Shown: positions 2,179-21,634 of the stretch, piece by piece
Position numbering within the stretch: the first letter of the stretch is position 1
Layout of the letters: each line of letters begins with the position of its first letter
Virus record (IMG/VR): IMGVR_UViG_3300037261_000006
Coordinates: 1 to 26,160 of that record
DNA length: 26,160 bases
Direction: 5' to 3' (one strand)
From: a virus
Program-made: the position numbers and the translations under genes
Notes under the pieces: generated by a model
The model's input: only the letters and a program-made list of their open reading frames with translations
What the model was told of the DNA's origin: nothing
The model's database searches: none

Positions 2179-3233
2179 GCTTTCAGCCCCTTCGGATACA
2201 TCGCGCGCATAAGTCGGTTATGTTGCTCGTTGACTGGCGGCGGCGGGGGCTCGGGCGTAAACATTTCAGTCGTGGGCCGCTTTTCAGCATTTGCTGAAAA
2301 CGCGAGCGAGCCCACGAAGGATAAAATCTTGGAGCGCGCAGCGGGAATGTCGGTTTGTTTCTGACACTGTTTCGAGCATATCGAAGTCGCACACTGGCAC
2401 GGGTTGATCGGCTCGATTGCGAGATAGGGGGCGAAGCGGGCACCACTGGCGCACCATGCGGCCCGCTCATACCCGCCGAGGATTGAGATCACCGGAGTGC
2501 CGACGGCGGGCCCGAGAATGGCCGCGAAGCCACCCGACGTGAAGACGAGATCGGCGACGGCGAAGAGCCCGGCAAGATGCTCGAAGGAAAGCTCGCCATT
2601 GTGCAATTCCTTGTCGGCGATAAGGTGCGGCCCGATGATCCACTCTTTCCCTGGTTCGAGATCGGCGACCGAGATCACAAAGAAACGGTCGCGAATGGTC
2701 GCGAAGAGTTCGGAATAGACCCCTGGGTCCGCGTTGCGCTTTTCGCCGCCGCGCCACTCCGGTCTAGCGGTGAGCGGGCGGTATATCAGCACAGGCTTCC
2801 CCTCAGGGTTAATGCGGGCGAGCAATAGCCGGGCGGGCTCGCGCCATGCGTCGGGTACTGGTAGCCGGTAGTCCGCCGCCTCGTATGTGCAGCCGGGCGC
2901 GCATAGGGTCATAGCTTCGAGGACGGTCTGCGACGGCGTTCGCATAATTCCGTTCGCTCCGTACATCAAGCGGATTGACTGACCGCGCGCCGGAGTTTTG
3001 TTTGTGAAGAGTTTAAGCTCGCTCTCACGCACTTGATTTTTCATTTGAGTGCGCAGCCGCACGGGCCGACGGATCACATGAAGGCCGTCGGCGATCAAGT
3101 CGTGGTACAGAGAAGCCCACGACGAGATTAGCCACACGTCGTGCTCGCGCATTAGCTGGCGCAGGATACCGCGCTGATGCAGGTTGTCGCCCATGCCGTG
3201 CATACCATCGACGAGCAAAAATTCTTTTGTCAT
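2175..3233 (-). CDS. GT9-like (heptosyltransferase-type, GT-B) glycosyltransferase
   Basis: A 352-residue protein with the two-domain GT-B layout. The N-terminal GDNLHQRGILRQL stretch (15-27) corresponds to the acceptor-side glycine loop of ADP-heptose:LPS heptosyltransferases. The C-terminal ADLVFTSGGFAAILGPAVGTPVISILGG (227-254) matches the donor-binding D-x-GxxH/A-AxxGxP region. Residues 279-290 hold an unusual CxCxxxxCxxxC cluster. After about residue 320 comes a proline-rich tail with six consecutive Pro residues. The ATG at 3233 is chosen because AGGAG lies 8 bases upstream and it overlaps the preceding stop as ATGA; a GTG at 3260 is less likely. It probably transfers a nucleotide-activated sugar to a glycan, and the GDP-deoxyhexose made by the neighbouring enzymes is a possible donor. 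Donor and acceptor are not visible from sequence. Confidence 0.75.
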   Translation of the reverse strand: MTKEFLLVDGMHGMGDNLHQRGILRQLMREHDVWLISSWASLYHDLIADGLHVIRRPVRLRTQMKNQVRESELKLFTNKTPARGQSIRLMYGANGIMRTPSQTVLEAMTLCAPGCTYEAADYRLPVPDAWREPARLLLARINPEGKPVLIYRPLTARPEWRGGEKRNADPGVYSELFATIRDRFFVISVADLEPGKEWIIGPHLIADKELHNGELSFEHLAGLFAVADLVFTSGGFAAILGPAVGTPVISILGGYERAAWCASGARFAPYLAIEPINPCQCATSICSKQCQKQTDIPAARSKILSFVGSLAFSANAEKRPTTEMFTPEPPPPPVNEQHNRLMRAMYPKGLKA

Positions 3234-4156
3234 GGCGTGTTCTCCTGAAACCACTCCCACGTCTCGCGCAGTCCGCGATCAAGCGAATAGTCAGGCTCAA
3301 ACCCGAGCGCCGAGAGACGGCTGAGATCAATTGTGCAGTCCATGCGGCCATTTGGTTTCGTTGGGTCGAACATCACGCGGCTCATTGAGACATTGGATAG
3401 CAAGGAAAGTTTTTCGACGACTTCCCTGATACTATGCGTCCTGCCGTTGCCGATATTGATCGCTCCGTGTACTTCGTCCATTGCGAGGCGAACAATTCTC
3501 GCGAGGTCTTTGACGTAAAGAAAATCTCGGAGCGGGGAGCCGTCGCCCCACACATGGACCGGCTTCAAGGACGTGGCCGCTTGATCGAATTTCCAGATTA
3601 GGGTTGGCAGCACATGTCCATTGATCGGATCAAACTTGTCGCGCGGGCCGTAGAGGTTGCCGGAAACCAAATAGGCCCAATCGAGGCTGTAGCTTTCACC
3701 GTAGGCTTCGAGCATCGCGAGCATCCCGCGCTTCGCGTGACCGTATCCGCTTTCCGACGAGTGCGGGCGACCGTTGAAAATGTTTTCCTCTCGGAGCGGA
3801 AGTTGCGGCGGCCACGGGTAGGTCGCGTTCGTTCCCATAACCGTGATCTTTTGCGCTCCCGAGGTTCGGGCCGCGTCCACGACGCTCGTATTGATAAGAG
3901 TGTTTTCGAGATAGGCGCGGCCCTGATCTTTCATGTTGCCGCCAAGGCCGGACACGCGCGCAGCGGCGTGAAAAATGTGAGCGGGTTTTAGTCGAGCGAA
4001 GACTTGTGCCGTTGCGGCGAAGTCGGTCAAGTCGCAGTCGCGATGTCCAAGACCGATCACGTTGGAGAAGCCCTCGGTCTCAAGGTGCTCTACAACGGTG
4101 GAGCCAACGAGCCCGCGCGCGCCCGTCACGATGATGGTGTCTGATTTGTGCATCAT
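3230..4156 (-). CDS. fcl: GDP-L-fucose synthase homologue with Cys-to-Ala active-site change
   Basis: A 308-residue extended short-chain dehydrogenase. GARGLVGS (12-19) is the NAD(P)-binding glycine loop; Tyr138 and Lys142 form the YxxxK pair; NLYGPRDKFDP and NGHVLPTLI (His181) match the GDP-fucose synthase signature; VWGDGSPLRDFLYVKDLA (202-219) matches the substrate-binding stretch. In the family it epimerises C3 and C5 and reduces C4 of GDP-4-keto-6-deoxy-mannose. In the E. coli enzyme the active-site strand reads GSSCIYP with Ser107 and Cys109; here it reads GTNATYP, so Ser becomes Thr109 and catalytic Cys becomes Ala111. His179 is kept as His181. Epimerisation may be altered or lost. The gene overlaps both neighbours by 4 bases, and GGAG lies 8 bases before the start. 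Confidence 0.88.
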   Translation of the reverse strand: MMHKSDTIIVTGARGLVGSTVVEHLETEGFSNVIGLGHRDCDLTDFAATAQVFARLKPAHIFHAAARVSGLGGNMKDQGRAYLENTLINTSVVDAARTSGAQKITVMGTNATYPWPPQLPLREENIFNGRPHSSESGYGHAKRGMLAMLEAYGESYSLDWAYLVSGNLYGPRDKFDPINGHVLPTLIWKFDQAATSLKPVHVWGDGSPLRDFLYVKDLARIVRLAMDEVHGAINIGNGRTHSIREVVEKLSLLSNVSMSRVMFDPTKPNGRMDCTIDLSRLSALGFEPDYSLDRGLRETWEWFQENTP

Positions 4157-5055: not shown

Positions 5056-5761
5056 GGAATTGATCCTCGATATAGAGCGAGTGCGCGGTCATCAATTGCA
5101 TACAGACTTCGCGAGTTTTTACCGAGTGAACGAAAGTCGTGCCGCGATAGCGCACGGCGTCCCACGCCGCCCCGGCAAAGAACGGGTCGAAAGTTGGATA
5201 GCTGATTGCGTTGGGGAAGCCATGCCACTTAATTCCGGCTTTGATCGCAAGTTGAATGAGCCAGTAGTCGATGAATAGCATGTTCGGATTGACTGTCACA
5301 TCATCCGCGACGGCGAGCAAGCCTTCGATGGTATGTCTGGACATGAACCACGGCGGGTGAAACGCGATGTGAGGGAAGCCCTCGGGATAAAACGCTTGCT
5401 GCTGTGGGCTGTCGTCGATCTTGATGTTTGTCCATAGCAGGTTCGGAGCGGAGTAGAGATACTTCGGAAGCTCGGGCGTGAGACAGAAACTATCGGCGTC
5501 GTGGATTAGAAAATGATTTTCGGGGAACGTCAAAAGAATTTTCATATGTTCGCGCATCCGAGCGATTGCTTTTTCCCCGATGTAGCATCGCTCGCCGCCG
5601 AAACGGTTTTCAAGGCCGGGGACTTCGGCCTTCGCGTCTTCGGGAGAGAGGACAACGACCGGGCACTCGTGATGCAAATAAATATCACGCATCGCGATGA
5701 CTTGGTTCTGATCGCCAGCGTAGCAACAGACTGCCACTCTTGTGTCAGCGTTTAAGGTCAT
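5042..5761 (-). CDS. Glycosyltransferase-like protein with DxD motif
   Basis: A 239-residue protein. The N-terminal [25 protein letters not shown] and [12 protein letters not shown] motifs (Asp88 and Asp90) give a GT-A-like nucleotide-sugar site. [20 protein letters not shown] stretch at about 165-183 and a VHSVKTRE element near the C-terminus are shared with the next gene. It is the shorter member of a tandem pair and stops where the partner's basic tail begins. It starts inside the 3' end of the dehydratase gene (17-base overlap). The shared N-terminus and close overlaps suggest duplication followed by change of acceptor or donor, which is inference. Confidence 0.75.
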
Positions 5762-6755
5762 GGTTCACCATTTCCTTCACAAGCTCGGCAAAGCCGACTT
5801 TTGGTTTCCACCCTAGCACGGTTCGAGCTTTCGTTGGGTCGCCGAGAAGCACGTCAATTTCTGACGGGCGAAAATAATGTGGGTCAACGCACACGACTTT
5901 CTCGTCGGTCCCGGCGCGATAGCCGATCTCGTCAACGCCAGCGCCGCGCCATTCGATCTCTGTGCCGACGTGCGCGAAAGCGCGCTCGACAAACTCGCGC
6001 ACCGAATAAGTTTCGCCGGTCGCCATCACATAATCTCCCGGCTCGGACTGTTGCAGCATAAGCCACATGCCCTCGACAAAATCGCGAGCGTGTCCCCAGT
6101 CGCGTTTCGCATCCAAGTTTCCAAGGTGCAGGGGCGGCTGTGGGCCGCGAAGTGTCGCGGCGACCGCCTGCGTGATCTTGCGCGTGACAAACGTGTGGCC
6201 GCGTCGCGGGCTTTCGTGATTGAAGAGGATACCGTTTGAGGCGTGGAAGCCGTAGGCTTCGCGATAGTTTCGGGTGATCCAGTAGCCGTACAGCTTCGCC
6301 GCGCCGTAAGGGCTACGCGGATGGAACGGCGTCTCTTCGGACATTGGCGTCGGCACGTTGCCATACATTTCGGAAGTCGAGGCTTGATAGAAGCGAGCGT
6401 CGCCCATGCCTAAGAGCCGGATGCCTTCGAGCAAGCGCAGCGGGCCAAGCGCGTCTGAGTTCGCGGTGTACTCCGGCGTCTCGAAGCTAACTTGCACATG
6501 ACTTTGCGCCGCTAGATTGTAGACTTCGGTCGGCTGCACGTCCTGCAAAAGCCGGATCACATTCGTGGCGTCTGTCACGTCGCCGTAGTGCAAGTGAAAT
6601 TGTGAAGAGAGCGGAATGTGGTCTATGCGCGTGGTATTGAATGAAGACGCGCGACGCTTTAGGCCGTGAACCTCATACCCTTTTTCCAAAAGAAGGTCGG
6701 CCAGATAACTTCCATCTTGGCCGGTCACTCCGGTAATCAATGCCACATTTTTCAT
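5745..6755 (-). CDS. gmd: GDP-mannose 4,6-dehydratase
   Basis: A 336-residue extended short-chain dehydrogenase that converts GDP-mannose to GDP-4-keto-6-deoxy-mannose, the entry step to GDP-fucose, GDP-rhamnose and related sugars. Residues 8-17 ([10 protein letters not shown]) are the NADP-binding loop. ASTSEMYG holds Thr127 and Glu129, and [10 protein letters not shown] holds Tyr150 and Lys154, so the catalytic set is complete. [27 protein letters not shown] and [17 protein letters not shown] are family signatures. It is slightly shorter than the E. coli enzyme at the C-terminus. It overlaps the DUF5672 gene by 4 bases and the next transferase gene by 17, within a continuous operon. The donor GDP-mannose is presumably taken from the host. 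Confidence 0.96.
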
Positions 6756-15247: not shown

Positions 15248-15705
15248 TAAATTTCCTCAGCTTCAAGCGTCCATCCGTTCACGGCTTTCCATTCGTCGAA
15301 ATGTTGCGTGACACTTCTAACGAGACAGACGAGCACGGGCCGATAGAATGTGTAAGCGCCCTGTACCCATGACGAGCCGCTGACTTCCGCTCGCGCTGGC
15401 GAGCCGGGATTTCCCGTCGCGTATGCGAGCGAACACGCGCAGTAGATTGTAACGGTCATGCCCGGCCACACGTTGTCGAGCGGCGGAGCGTCCACATCGC
15501 TTGCGGAAATGTGCGTAATATATTTGCGAAACTGCGGGGCACTCACGTCGATCAACGTGCCATTGATTGTCCGCTCCATGTGTACGCTGTCTTGGATCAC
15601 TTGCAAAGATTGAGTGAGACCGCGCGCCTGATAGAGCATCGTCCCCATGGACGAGATCGACAAGAGCGTGTCGGCGTTTGCTGGCAGTAGGTTCTCAATT
15701 GGCAT
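15247..15705 (-). CDS. Tail protein following the tape measure gene
   Basis: A 152-residue protein from the ATG at 15705, which shares a base with the tape measure stop (TAATG), the same junction as at its own 3' end. Another ATG at 15717 would add four residues (MGAL) and cannot be excluded; neither has a clear ribosome binding site. Visible features: a helical start (IENLLPANADTLLSIS), a RTINGTLIDVSAPQFRKYIT strand pair, a WPGMTVTIYCACSLAY segment and a C-terminal VLVCLVRSVTQHFDEWKA. No family is assigned. Genes in this place usually encode minor tail or distal tail components. Confidence 0.75.
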   Translation of the reverse strand: MPIENLLPANADTLLSISSMGTMLYQARGLTQSLQVIQDSVHMERTINGTLIDVSAPQFRKYITHISASDVDAPPLDNVWPGMTVTIYCACSLAYATGNPGSPARAEVSGSSWVQGAYTFYRPVLVCLVRSVTQHFDEWKAVNGWTLEAEEI

Positions 15706-17618
15706 TAGCGCACCCATGATGGTCTGCGACCAGTCGAGCCCATTTGCCGACTGACTGCGAAGTTTTGGAGTTCACGCGCGACGCCCTGCGCCGCTCGCAT
15801 TTGGAAAGTGTTGCCGTCGATATGCAAGTTTACCGGATGGCCGCCGCCGCCCGCGCCCACGAGACCGCCGTCGGCGAAGCGCGCCGGGCGGAAGCTCGAC
15901 ACGTAGCCGCCCATCGAGAAGCCGTTCGCGGCGAGATCGTTGATTGAGTGCATGAAGTCGGTGCCGTAAGCGCGCACTGCCGCCGCCTTCATAACAAATT
16001 CGCCGTTTGAGAGATTGGCGGGGATGCTGTCGGACGTTGCCGAGCCCGGGCCCGTGACGTAGCCGCCGCCCGCGCGATCCTCTTTCGGCGGGAGCGGCCT
16101 ATTGCTCCAATCATAAGCCGCTGCTAGTGCAGCGGTAAGCTTGTGGAAGCCATCGACCACTTCGTCGATTACCGATTTAACTTCACCCGCCGTCTTTTTT
16201 ACGTCGTCCGTGACGGCCTGCGTTCCGCCGAGCGCGACATCATGTGTGACGCGCGAAGCCGTTCCTGAGATTTCGCCTTCCGTCTGTTTGATACCGTGTG
16301 CAGTATCTAGCTGCTGTTGACTGATGGCCTTTGCAAACTTTTCGATGAGGGCTTTAAGGTCCGCCCCCGATGCAGTTTTTATTTTCTCTAGCATGTCGGC
16401 TACTTCGCGCGGTCGCCCGCCGAACATATCGCGTCCGACGGCCTGCTGCTGCGCGCCGGTCATTTGATCGCCAAACTTCCGAATGAAGTCAAAAAATACT
16501 TTGAGGCTATCCGGCACTTCCGGCGTTCCGGTTTTGCTTTCCTGCCCGGCCTTCAATTCGAGGGCCCGCGCAACGGCCTGTGGGGCCGCCCTGAGGGCCT
16601 GCTGTATATTCCCTTGATTGATCGCGGCGAGAATGTTCTGCAAATCTTTGGTATTCGTACTAGCTAATTTGTTGATGGCTTCCGCCGCCGAGTTCTGCGC
16701 TTTCTGTACGCCGAGATCGGCGCGGTCCAGCGCAGTCCCAGCCCCGGCCCTATCCCTGGCTTGTTTTAATTCGGCTTCGCGAACGGCGAGCGCGTCCTTC
16801 TTCTGTCTATCAGCCTGATCCCGCGCATCATTCGTCTCTTTATTCTTCGCATCGGTGATCCGCTGCTTATCGTCTTCAACTTTTTGATATTGCTGTAGGG
16901 TCTCGCGGTTAATTTTCTTTTGCGGGTCTTCCTTTTCGCCAGTTCTCAGTTCGCGAAGCCGAGCCTCGTCAGCGGCGAGAGAAAACTCGGCGCTCTTCAC
17001 GCTCGAAGCATCGTGCTCGGCCTGAGACGAAGCATCAGAGCTTTCTCGCGCGACTTTCTTGTACGCATCGGCGACGGCGAGCGCATCGCTTTCGAGCTTG
17101 TCTTTCCATTCTGCCGATGCAAACTGTGCGCGCTGCATCGCCTCTTCGACGGCAAGGTGGCTCTCTTTGACTTGTATCTGAGCGCCCTCAATCTTTGTCG
17201 CGCTGTTAGTGACTTCCTCTTGTATATTTTCCCACCCTTGCGCAATGCGTTGCGCGCCGCGCTCCATCATGCGCGCGAAGCTCTCAAATTCGATGCCGAC
17301 TTCCTTGAACGCTTGAGAGAGACCTTGCGCCGATCCCGCCGAAACTCCCATGGCGCTGCCGAGTGCTTCGAACGAGATCACAGCATCGGCGGAGCTATCG
17401 ACAAGCTTCGCGAGTGTCGCCACTACGGCGATGATCGCGCCGATGACCGCGAGAGTGCCGCCGCTCATAAGGGAGAAAGCGCCATTCGTCGCCGTCGCGG
17501 CTACTTCGATGGCTTCGAACGCCGCCGCGCCAATGCGGCCAAGCTCTTCTAGAGTAGCCCCGGCTTCGCCAGTTCCCTCGACTACAACTCGCTGTACGAT
17601 GTCGTCTAGGTTGGACAT
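15705..17618 (-). CDS. Tail tape measure protein
   Basis: A 637-residue protein that sets tail length and is ejected during DNA entry. Residues 20-80 include a hydrophobic stretch at about 52-72 (TLAVIGAIIAVVATLAKLV). Residues 120-330 are a long charged helix and coiled-coil region rich in Lys, Glu, Ala and Gln. The C-terminal part carries GGGYVTGPGSATSDSIPANL followed by SNGEFVMKAAAVRAYG, the signature at the end of many tape measure proteins. The length suggests a fairly short tail of roughly 95 nm if the usual 0.15 nm per residue holds. The ATG lies 6 bases after the upstream stop, and GGTGGGG in the end of that gene is the likely ribosome binding site. Confidence 0.93.
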   Translation of the reverse strand: MSNLDDIVQRVVVEGTGEAGATLEELGRIGAAAFEAIEVAATATNGAFSLMSGGTLAVIGAIIAVVATLAKLVDSSADAVISFEALGSAMGVSAGSAQGLSQAFKEVGIEFESFARMMERGAQRIAQGWENIQEEVTNSATKIEGAQIQVKESHLAVEEAMQRAQFASAEWKDKLESDALAVADAYKKVARESSDASSQAEHDASSVKSAEFSLAADEARLRELRTGEKEDPQKKINRETLQQYQKVEDDKQRITDAKNKETNDARDQADRQKKDALAVREAELKQARDRAGAGTALDRADLGVQKAQNSAAEAINKLASTNTKDLQNILAAINQGNIQQALRAAPQAVARALELKAGQESKTGTPEVPDSLKVFFDFIRKFGDQMTGAQQQAVGRDMFGGRPREVADMLEKIKTASGADLKALIEKFAKAISQQQLDTAHGIKQTEGEISGTASRVTHDVALGGTQAVTDDVKKTAGEVKSVIDEVVDGFHKLTAALAAAYDWSNRPLPPKEDRAGGGYVTGPGSATSDSIPANLSNGEFVMKAAAVRAYGTDFMHSINDLAANGFSMGGYVSSFRPARFADGGLVGAGGGGHPVNLHIDGNTFQMRAAQGVARELQNFAVSRQMGSTGRRPSWVR

Positions 17619-17624
17619 GACATG

Positions 17625-18164
17625 TTACCCCACCGCGCGGAAAGCATGATCGAAGAGCGAACGGAAATTCTGCATGACACGAAGTTGAATTTCTCTCAAG
17701 TGCCACTTCGGGGGGATAGTCACGCTTGCGACGCCAAAAAACTTTGGTCGCTTGTCAGACATCGAAAAGAGTAGCGGAGTTCCTTTAGAGCTTTTTCCCG
17801 AGAAGAGTTGATCGCCGTATGATCCGATTGGAACGCGCTCGGCGTCGGTGCCGCTGATACCAATCCACATCAACGGTTTTCCTCTGATTGTGCCGCCCGT
17901 CTCGAAAATTCCTGCGTAGTCGATGTCATGCGTCATGCTGATACGCATATTTTTGATCGAGCCCTCGACTGCGACGTGCAGACCGCCCGTCCACTCTCCG
18001 CCGAAGTTGCCGCCTGCCGCGATGTCTGCCCGCGCTTCGGCTTCGATCATTGACGCGGCCATGTTTGTCGCCGCCGTCAACGCTGCGTCCATTCGGTCGC
18101 CGAGCCCCGCAAGGTTCTGCTTAAATTTTTGTGCAGGGACTTTACTGTCGGTGACTACTCTCAC
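17625..18164 (-). CDS. Minor tail protein between chaperone and tape measure
   Basis: A 179-residue protein from a GTG at 18164, chosen because GGAG lies 8 bases upstream and because the GTGA overlaps the stop of the tail-chaperone extension. A GTG at 18179 is the other option. The sequence has a helical N-terminus (FKQNLAGLGDRMDAALTAA), then HDIDYAGIFETGGTIRGKPL, an LLFSMSDKRPKFFGVASVTI stretch and IPPKWHLREI near the C-terminus. The pattern H-x-I-x-Y-A-x-I-F-E-x-G recalls HK97 gp10-like minor tail proteins. Its position between the chaperone and the tape measure gene supports a tail assembly role. The family match is tentative. Confidence 0.75.
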   Translation of the reverse strand: MRVVTDSKVPAQKFKQNLAGLGDRMDAALTAATNMAASMIEAEARADIAAGGNFGGEWTGGLHVAVEGSIKNMRISMTHDIDYAGIFETGGTIRGKPLMWIGISGTDAERVPIGSYGDQLFSGKSSKGTPLLFSMSDKRPKFFGVASVTIPPKWHLREIQLRVMQNFRSLFDHAFRAVG

Positions 18165-18457
18165 TGGTCCTTCTCCCACTCGTCGATTTGCTTTTTCACT
18201 GCCTTCGCGTCGCCGTTCGTTGCCAGAAACCCGACTGAGAGTTTCGCTGCAAGCTCACGCTCGGCTCGCCGCTCGGCGAGAAACAAGAAAGCATTTATCT
18301 GGCGAGGGGTCAGTTTCCAGATGGTTGCAAGGTCGTGTCCGCGTCCGACGAGTTGTTCGATGCTGGCGGCGAGATCGTAGCCGGTGCCTTTCCAGAGTTT
18401 TCGGATACGGCTAACCGGGCGAGGGCGGCCAGCCGACTGACGAAAGGGCCGAAGCCA
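18161..18457 (-). CDS. Tail assembly chaperone T-like extension, -1 frame, no start codon
   Basis: This open frame runs from just after a TAG at 18460-18458 to a TGA at 18163-18161 and overlaps the chaperone gene in the -1 frame. It encodes TIWKLTPRQINAFLFLAERR followed by a Lys/Glu-rich helix ending EWEKDQ. In the -1 frame there is no ATG, GTG or TTG before the conserved-looking LTPRQI motif, so it cannot start by itself in the usual way. In lambda-like phages the G gene shifts -1 into T to make the longer G-T chaperone that loads the tape measure protein. Place (between tail tube and tape measure), frame and size fit this. The fusion product would be 209 residues. The stop overlaps the GTG of the next gene. 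Confidence 0.82.
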   Translation of the reverse strand, partial: WLRPFRQSAGRPRPVSRIRKLWKGTGYDLAASIEQLVGRGHDLATIWKLTPRQINAFLFLAERRAERELAAKLSVGFLATNGDAKAVKKQIDEWEKDQ

Positions 18458-18789
18458 CTACGGAATGTTAATCTCCCTATCGCTTCGAGGATGTCGAGTT
18501 GTTCCTCGACTGAGAATTGACCGGCGCGCTCTTCTGCTTTTGGATTTCCGCACTCGCGACACGCCGCCGCGATGACTGCTTTAATCCCGTCCGGCGCTGT
18601 AGCCGCCAGCGCCTTGATGTCGATCTTGCCGCCGCCGAACCAATTCCTGCTTTCGGGGAAACGCTGGAATAGGGCAATCACGTCTTCGGATGTGATGCCA
18701 TAGACGCGGAGCATGTGATCGGCGACTGGAACGTCTTCGTAAGATGGCGCGATGTCGAGTAGACCTAAACCTTGTTCGACTTGTGTCAC
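18310..18789 (-). CDS. Tail assembly chaperone (G-like, short form)
   Basis: A 159-residue protein from a GTG at 18789, chosen because AAGGA lies 8 bases upstream; the frame before it reads as Pro/Arg/Lys-rich non-coding sequence. Residues 22-50 (VADHMLRVYGITSEDVIALF) and 90-125 are helical, followed by a low-complexity linker (GKAPATISPPASNNSSDADT) such as ends lambda gpG. It binds the tape measure protein before tail tube polymerisation. It contains two possible slippery sites before the -1 extension: C-CCT-TTC at codons 115-116 and T-GGA-AAG at codons 133-134. Genes in this position almost always encode this role. Confidence 0.82.
   Translation of the reverse strand: MTQVEQGLGLLDIAPSYEDVPVADHMLRVYGITSEDVIALFQRFPESRNWFGGGKIDIKALAATAPDGIKAVIAAACRECGNPKAEERAGQFSVEEQLDILEAIGRLTFRSGFGPFVSRLAALARLAVSENSGKAPATISPPASNNSSDADTTLQPSGN
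18388..18394 (-). promoter_or_regulatory. Candidate -1 frameshift site T-GGA-AAG
   Basis: The minus strand reads T GGA AAG in the chaperone frame (codons Gly133-Lys134) and TGG AAA GGC in the extension frame. It differs in one base from the lambda G-T site G-GGA-AAG. The A-site AAG to AAA slip is perfect, but the P-site Gly tRNA would face a first-base mismatch. It lies at the start of the low-complexity linker, the usual place for the shift. Confidence 0.5.
18442..18448 (-). promoter_or_regulatory. Candidate -1 frameshift site C-CCT-TTC
   Basis: This is the only perfect X-XXY-YYZ heptamer in the zero frame within the stretch where the -1 frame is open (18457-18310). Pro115 and Phe116 tRNAs could both re-pair in the -1 frame (CCC TTT). 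It lies in the last helix of the G-like domain, earlier than is usual. Confidence 0.45.
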
Positions 18790-19274: not shown

Positions 19275-19835
19275 TTACGGCGAGTTCGGGAGCGTCACGA
19301 CGGCGGTGCCGAACGTGCCGGTCGCTTGATCGAAAAGCACATCGCCTTCGAGGTCGATGGTGCCCCAGGTGTTGCCGATAAGCGAGAGAGCTTTGTTCGG
19401 AGAGAGTTTGACGAGCGGGAAGTTCACGGTCCAGTTTGGGCCGATGTCATTCGCGCCGACAAACTTCACCGCCCCATAAACCACAGGGCTCGCGAAAATG
19501 TCGATGGTGTCTGGCGTCGGCGACGGGCCGCCAGTCGGCAGGCCGAGAAGAGCAAAGCCCAGGTTGCGGGCGGTAAACTCTTCGAGCACCATGGTCAGAA
19601 CGCCATTCAATTCGATCACGGCGGTGAAGTCTTTCACCTTCACGCCGGTCATCGAAGAGTAGTGATCGAGTTGTGTGACTTTCGCCTGAAACTCGAACAT
19701 CGGGCAGTTGCCCACGTCTGTGAAAACGCTTTCGCCAAGAAGCTTGACCGAGACCAAGCCTTTGCCGACGTAGTAGTTGCCGATATTGGGGCTCGTCAGC
19801 GAGCCTTCAATCGCGAATTGTCCTGGGCCAGTCAT
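19275..19835 (-). CDS. Major tail tube protein
   Basis: A 186-residue protein that polymerises into the tail tube. It has a beta-rich layout with YVGKGLVSVKLLGESVFTDV at 22-41, CPMFEFQAKVTQLDHYSSMT at 44-63, and a VKVKDFTAVIELNGVLTMVL strand followed by EEFTARNLGFALLG. The Q-L-D-H-Y/F-S-S-x-x-G-x-x-x-K-D pattern followed by EE-x-T-A-x-N is shared by many siphovirus tube proteins. GGGAG lies 8 bases before the ATG. It precedes the small helical gene and chaperone and follows the tail terminator. The two hairpins after it suggest a distinct transcript end. Confidence 0.85.
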   Translation of the reverse strand: MTGPGQFAIEGSLTSPNIGNYYVGKGLVSVKLLGESVFTDVGNCPMFEFQAKVTQLDHYSSMTGVKVKDFTAVIELNGVLTMVLEEFTARNLGFALLGLPTGGPSPTPDTIDIFASPVVYGAVKFVGANDIGPNWTVNFPLVKLSPNKALSLIGNTWGTIDLEGDVLFDQATGTFGTAVVTLPNSP

Positions 19836-20741: not shown

Positions 20742-20761
20742 TTAGCAACAGGGAATTAGCG
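20742..20761. repeat. 20-bp direct repeat, copy 1
   Basis: TTAGCAACAGGGAATTAGCG is identical to 24369-24388, 3.6 kb away, in the same orientation. This copy spans the stop codon of the adaptor gene and the gap before the head-closure gene. No third copy is seen in the window. Confidence 0.8.
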
Positions 20762-21634
20762 GATCACTGTGCGCCCGCCACCCGCGAGCAATAGGCCCGC
20801 TTTTGCCAGCATCCGGTCCACTTGCGGGAATGGCGCAAAGAAACCGATGCCAAGTTTTGTGTCGTATGTGATGCTGTGCTTGATCGGCCCAACGTCATCC
20901 GTGATTGAGGATACAACGCCGCCCGCGCTGACAAGTTCGGGATCATAGTCCGGCTGCAAGATTGTGCCGTTCAAGGCCCGATATGCAAGCTCAGAACACG
21001 CGGCTTTGAGCACGTTCGGAACGCCCATAATCTTATCGCCACTGAGATCGGTCGCGCCTTGACGCGGCCATTCGGTTGACTGTGAAGACGTGGCCGGGGC
21101 CATGAACGGAATTGAGCCGACGCTGAATGGCGAGAAGAACGGGTCAAGAAACTCCATCGTCGGGTCGATGATCGGGTCGCCGAGCCGCTGCACATTCTTG
21201 ATGCCACGATACCGATATTTCTGATCGAGGTAATCAGTCGCCTTCACGATGGCGAACATGATCGGATCGAATGGCGACGCGGCGTACAGATTGCCGCGAC
21301 TGTCGTGGTACGACATAAACTCGGCCACGGTCTCGTAAGCGTTCGCGCCGTGTCGCACAGTGAGCGCCGACGTTGTGGCCGCGTTCGAGCCGGTCTTCCA
21401 TGTGATCGTGCCGGTGCGCGGCCAATTCGCCGCCGAGAGAATACCTGTCCCGACACCGAAGTTTTCAGCGTCGAGCACTTGCTCCACCGTGAAGTCGAGC
21501 GGCGAGGTATTCCAGGCGTCTGTTCCGGCAACCGTGCCAGTGTCGCCGACGAGAATTGCATGGGATGGAGCGGAGGCGATAGTGAACATCGCCGCTGTGC
21601 CGAGATAATTCTGTACGCAAAAGATCGCTGTCAT
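20756..21634 (-). CDS. Head-tail adaptor-like protein with DnaT-like (PF20557-type) domain and extra N-terminus
   Basis: A 292-residue protein. Residues from about 91 onward read LTVRHGANAYETVAEFMSYH, DYLDQKYRYRGIK, EWPRQGATDLSGD and VPNVLKAACSELAYRAL, which is the order seen in the phage 'DnaT-like ssDNA-binding' family (ANSY...YLDxxYRWxGxR...WPRxGxxDxxG...VPxxVxxAxxELAxRAL), usually a head-tail connector. Between about 151 and 188 is an insertion rich in Phe, Pro and Ser. Residues 1-90 are an additional N-terminal domain (AILVGDTGTVAGTDAWNTSP, then WPRTGTITWKTGSNAA) not usual for the family. The place between capsid and closure genes fits an adaptor. It overlaps the upstream gene by 4 bases. 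Confidence 0.75.
   Translation of the reverse strand: MTAIFCVQNYLGTAAMFTIASAPSHAILVGDTGTVAGTDAWNTSPLDFTVEQVLDAENFGVGTGILSAANWPRTGTITWKTGSNAATTSALTVRHGANAYETVAEFMSYHDSRGNLYAASPFDPIMFAIVKATDYLDQKYRYRGIKNVQRLGDPIIDPTMEFLDPFFSPFSVGSIPFMAPATSSQSTEWPRQGATDLSGDKIMGVPNVLKAACSELAYRALNGTILQPDYDPELVSAGGVVSSITDDVGPIKHSITYDTKLGIGFFAPFPQVDRMLAKAGLLLAGGGRTVIR

Follow-up and report, generated by a model that had tools for sequence, protein, structure and literature searches.

Organization of the G/T locus

The whole stretch of DNA that was analysed (26,160 nucleotides of a virus record, hereafter the window) contains a set of tail genes on the minus strand in the order tail tube, G/T, 179-aa ORF and tape measure. 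The position of G/T is that of tail chaperones. Table 1 lists the features of the locus.

Table 1. Features of the G/T locus and the adjoining tail genes
Feature	Position	Strand	Details
Major tail (tube) protein, upstream of G	19275..19835	minus	phrog_807, E=2.8e-24; NCBIfam NF052337 tail_tube_6XGR, E=7.5e-26
G, predicted short tail assembly chaperone	18310..18789	minus	ORF of 159 aa; GTG start at 18789, TGA stop at 18310
Putative slip site C_CCU_UUC (CCCTTTC)	18442..18448	minus	In register X_XXY_YYZ of the G frame
Second candidate T_GGA_AAG (TGGAAAG), rejected	18388..18394	minus	In register X_XXY_YYZ of the G frame
Dual-coding stretch, 3' end of G over 5' end of T	18310..18441	minus	Flat substitution rates by codon position, both frames
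T, -1-frame extension that would follow slippage	18161..18442	minus	93 codons plus TGA; open frame, no start
Next ORF after T	17625..18164	minus	179 aa; GTG start overlaps the T stop (GTGA)
Tape measure protein gene	15705..17618	minus	637 aa; phrog_25241 and phrog_3547 (tail length tape measure), E about 1e-14

The GTG start of G comes after AAAAGGAAG. On the minus strand, the -1 frame is open from 18457 to 18161 (98 codons plus TGA), with no ATG, GTG or TTG ahead of the LTPRQI motif. The first such codon stands 27 bases past the Leu codon of LTPRQI, as seen in L018, a contig identical to the window in the G/T stretch. A preliminary description of this DNA had reported the same open frame and the same lack of start codons, and all coordinates agree. 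It had also given a length of 209 residues for a G-T fusion from either of two candidate slip sites, CCCTTTC and TGGAAAG. This length was reproduced (116+93 or 134+75 codons). Both heptamers were likewise placed and found in register; however, they are not equal, as only CCCTTTC is conserved. In the window, CCCTTTC sits in LTFRSGFGPF, just after the LTF motif of G.

G matched PF23789 (Pre_tape_measure) with E=1.9e-13 and 50.9 bits (cut-off: 27), and it also matched phrog_5260 (tail protein). When G was compared with three chi-like G/pre-tape-measure proteins using hhalign, the probability was 97.5 and the E-value 5.9e-12. A fold search of the predicted G model against the PDB gave no significant match, and profile searches of the 179-aa ORF (Pfam, PHROGs) gave no confident family. 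As in pairs of the G/GT type, the two ORFs overlap, the second is in the -1 frame without a start, and the pair lies between tube and tape measure, here with one extra ORF. Scanning the window for Rfam families and tRNA genes returned no match.

The tail_tube_6XGR match of the tail tube protein agrees with the chi-like affinity of G. Further observations concern other parts of the minus strand. The C-terminal part of an ORF among the head/tail connector genes (20756–21634) matches PF20557, 'putative DnaT-like ssDNA binding protein' (5.6e-17); going by its position, this ORF more likely encodes a structural or connector protein. A group 1 glycosyltransferase (PF00534; 24884–26011) adjoins the head genes. 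Two genes at 3230–4156 and 5745–6755, for a GDP-mannose 4,6-dehydratase (PF16363, 3e-147) and another NAD-dependent epimerase resembling GDP-fucose synthase, lie beside uncharacterised ORFs, and this pair suggests a phage-borne GDP-sugar pathway.

Conservation of the putative slip site in relatives

The G-seeded search found 14 viral contigs. As its seeds included one peptide spanning CCCTTTC, a second search was run on viral contigs with T-frame peptides downstream of both heptamers only (alignment A3). This T-seeded survey covered 80 of 147 confirmed relatives and gave 66 distinct T ORFs. Of these, 65 were testable and one was cut by the contig end.

The codons GGC CCT TTC were kept in all 14 G-seeded contigs. 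In the T-seeded survey, an in-frame X_XXY_YYZ heptamer was present in the G/T overlap of 63 of the 65 testable loci (among 80 of 147 relatives). The chance expectation was ~0.07 in-frame XXX(AAA/TTT)N heptamers per overlap, based on the density measured in these loci. Most loci had C_CCU_UUC, a few had C_CCU_UUU/A, one divergent clade had C_CCA_AAC and one locus had A_AAA_AAG. The Pro codon at the slip site was CCT in 37 of 37 distinct CCCTTTN flanks, compared with 15% elsewhere in these genes.

The loci with CCCAAAC form one branch on the T tree (support: 99). In this clade, the heptamer lies five codons upstream within the same motif (LTFPNGIG vs LTFRSGFGPF). The residues have thus changed from Pro-Phe to Pro-Asn, and the predicted slipperiness of the X_XXY_YYZ pattern is kept.

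Two of the 65 loci (among 80 of 147 relatives) had no canonical heptamer, namely L063 and L065. L063 has CCCTTCAAAC, with T_TCA_AAC in register. These exceptions leave the frameshift reading unchanged. L065 has no canonical heptamer and may re-initiate at TGAGCGAATTG, with a TTG shortly past its G stop.

Substitution rates by codon position

Substitution rates were calculated from the four ungapped relatives (L018, L019, L020 and L024). Upstream of the heptamer, the rates at G-frame positions 1/2/3 were 0.33/0.20/0.54. They were 0.28/0.38/0.36 between the heptamer and KG and 0.24/0.41/0.31 between KG and the G stop. Past the G stop, the rates at -1-frame positions 1/2/3 were 0.29/0.20/0.63. 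The codon-position rates hence switch from a third-position excess in the G frame to a flat distribution and then to a third-position excess in the -1 frame, meaning that a segment coding for G alone is followed by a dual-coding segment and then by one coding for T alone. By these rates, dual coding starts at CCCTTTC, ahead of the second candidate site. T is also conserved at the protein level, in 66 distinct viral ORFs (among 80 of 147 relatives), and its residues RKLW, 5' of the second site, are conserved.

Choice between the candidate slip sites and other explanations

Slippage at T_GGA_AAG instead of C_CCU_UUC would be suggested by its difference of one base from the lambda site G_GGA_AAG and by the tendency of A_AAG to shift in E. 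coli (general knowledge; PMC5009743). The preliminary description had proposed an alignment of both sites across related phages as a check. CCCTTTC was conserved in nearly all relatives and T_GGA_AAG was not: the codons at the second site in the G-seeded relatives were GGA AAG, GGA AGG, GGC GTG, GGC GCG or GGC AAG. What is invariant there is the T-frame W of RKLWKG (alignment A2). The apparent conservation of TGGAAAG comes from the T-frame Trp-Lys codons TGG AAG, and this candidate was rejected. Moreover, RKLW is conserved 5' of T_GGA_AAG and the rates by codon position already indicate dual coding in the interval that separates the two sites, which argues against a slip this far downstream. 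A slip at T_GGA_AAG would also force the P-site tRNA-Gly to re-pair on UGG. We therefore consider this site very improbable, and the ambiguity is almost certainly settled in favour of CCCTTTC as the predicted slip site.

Similarly improbable is a separate T protein from ribosomes that re-initiate at the G stop or close to it, where an NTG overlaps the TGA and no fusion would arise. The G stop is indeed part of ATGA in 20 of 56 relatives and of GTGA in 9 of 56, and L065 combines a missing heptamer with a TTG soon past its G stop. However, a TGA in frame 0 always makes an NTG in frame -1, so ATGA needs nothing more to explain it. The overlap codon of the window is CTG, and there is no usual start ahead of LTPRQI. 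A start in that region would drop the conserved GxGYExAA...GH...W part of T. According to the preliminary description, related phages with a conserved start codon of the T-like ORF, or with neither heptamer conserved, would refute frameshifting. A T-frame ATG, GTG or TTG between the heptamer and the conserved domain of T was found in none of the 56 distinct flanks, and one of the two heptamers is kept in nearly all relatives; the frameshift reading stands. Re-initiation also leaves the conserved heptamer unexplained. Re-initiation at ATGA/GTGA was thus rejected: these sequences are present in relatives, are a by-product of TGA stops and are absent in the window.

A sequencing error or decayed gene, conceivable for a single metagenomic virus record in which one indel would fuse both frames, is refuted because relatives share the split (dozens of independent contigs have identical split and overlap arrangements, and both the G and the T frame are constrained), which makes this explanation negligible.

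Elements that may stimulate slippage

A Shine-Dalgarno sequence about 10 bases ahead of the heptamer is an arrangement known from dnaX. The window has CGTAGT there, which gave no signal (duplex energy: -2.8; p=0.63 vs codon-resampled controls). Six relatives (L022, L023, L032, L033, L039 and L055) carry AGGAGT about 9–15 bases 5' of CCCTTTC. It arises from the uncommon Arg codon AGG in the FRSG peptide of these relatives. The predicted pairing of AGGAGT with the 16S tail was -7.6 to -7.7 kcal/mol (p: 0.003–0.02 vs codon-resampled controls), where a combined p-value would be too strong, as the sequences are related. AGGAGT is an apparent internal Shine-Dalgarno stimulator of a sub-lineage only and is not found in the window.

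No conserved RNA structure was detected downstream of the heptamer in the CCCTTTN relatives, as there was no consistent excess of fold energy (z scattered around 0, for folds free of pseudoknots). The window alone gave a z of -1.9 for a single fold. In part of the CCCAAAC clade (L079, L084, L091, L092 and L095), the downstream RNA was more stable than shuffled sequences (z: -2.5 to -4). These low fold energies possibly reflect a stimulatory structure.

The window therefore differs from frameshifting of the dnaX type, with neither an upstream Shine-Dalgarno sequence nor a conserved downstream stem. Because both the AGGAGT and a conserved downstream structure are missing, the slippage rate in the window may be low. 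A bare heptamer is nevertheless plausible, since lambda-type chaperone frameshifting needs a low rate only.

Proposed mechanism and its meaning

Taken from the sequence, it is very likely that a programmed -1 ribosomal frameshift at C_CCU_UUC yields two tail assembly chaperones from one start. We infer both the slippage and its rate. The majority of ribosomes would read G to its own stop at 18310 and produce the 159-aa protein. A minority would slip back by one base at 18448–18442, with the P-site tRNA-Pro paired to CCU and the A-site tRNA-Phe to UUC. The tRNAs would re-pair on CCC and UUU, and reading would continue to the TGA at 18161, giving the 209-residue G-T fusion. If the analogy with lambda gpG/gpGT holds, G would coat the tape measure protein, and the tail tube protein would be recruited by the T part of the fusion. 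In E. coli, UUY is shift-prone as an A-site codon, and all-pyrimidine heptamers are among the better shifters (PMC4066793).

Ordinary annotation would miss the T extension. The heptamer CCCTTTC, together with CCCAAAC in the sister group, is a searchable signature for an uncultured group with chi-like tail genes. The same heptamer occurs in relatives with and without a Shine-Dalgarno sequence, so stimulated slip sites can be compared with bare ones in a natural setting.

Frameshifting is regarded as the route to G and G-T in nearly all long-tailed phages, and the case itself is expected. An evenly balanced proposal goes further. A large, mostly uncultured group of chi-related phages would use C_CCU_UUC (Pro in the P site, Phe in the A site); the slip site would have moved by five codons and become C_CCA_AAC; and the internal Shine-Dalgarno sequence would have been gained or lost between lineages. 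If true, this is a natural series for the replacement of slip site and stimulator under a kept frameshift. Among the openly available papers searched, none describes CCCTTTC/CCCUUUC as the slip heptamer of a tail chaperone, and the heptamer may be new in this role.

Comparison with known phages

Searches of G and T of the window against annotated phages (tblastn) gave no match, and two bacterial genome scans found no relative. The divergent relative L055 led to chi-like phages in tblastn with weak E-values, and the profile comparison agrees. A profile comparison of T with chi-like T gave no significant match (probability: 5.8, GH motif region only) because the T parts are too diverged.

The preliminary description had called the system lambda-like. 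Mechanism and gene order fit this term; the relatives that can be recognised, however, are chi-like phages (Casjensviridae) and not lambda. In Proteus phage Saba (CPT_Saba_054/055) and Serratia phage Smarc5, G belongs to PF23789, as in the window. Both have a -1 ORF extension with an annotated frameshift product (in Smarc5, a pre-tape measure frameshift protein). Their heptamer is A_AAA_AAG, compared with C_CCU_UUC in the window. Rhizobium phage RHph_X2_30 has A_AAA_AAC, and the frameshift is not annotated there. In all three phages, the slip heptamer is located just past LTF, close to where the folded part of G ends, as in the window. The tape measure gene directly follows T in Saba and Smarc5, whereas the 179-aa ORF lies between them in the window. 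Burkholderia phage AH2 gp55/gp56 is also among the closest systems (PMC3483164).

In lambda, low-level -1 slippage makes a short and an extended chaperone (PMC5009743). The lambda gpG/gpGT pair resembles the proposed system in its -1 slippage, in the short and extended chaperone and in its position between tube and tape measure. It differs in the slip heptamer, which is G_GGA_AAG, and no sequence family common to lambda gpG/gpGT and the window proteins was found. KL1 uses the slip sequence GGGAAAC, unlike the window, and the protein family of the HK97-type and KL1 chaperones is also different. In these systems, as in the window, one more gene separates the frameshifted pair from the tape measure gene (PMC3483164). 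A -1 frameshift between the tube and tape measure genes is classical in long-tailed phages, according to PMC3483164 and PMC5009743, which cite Xu, Hendrix and Duda 2004.
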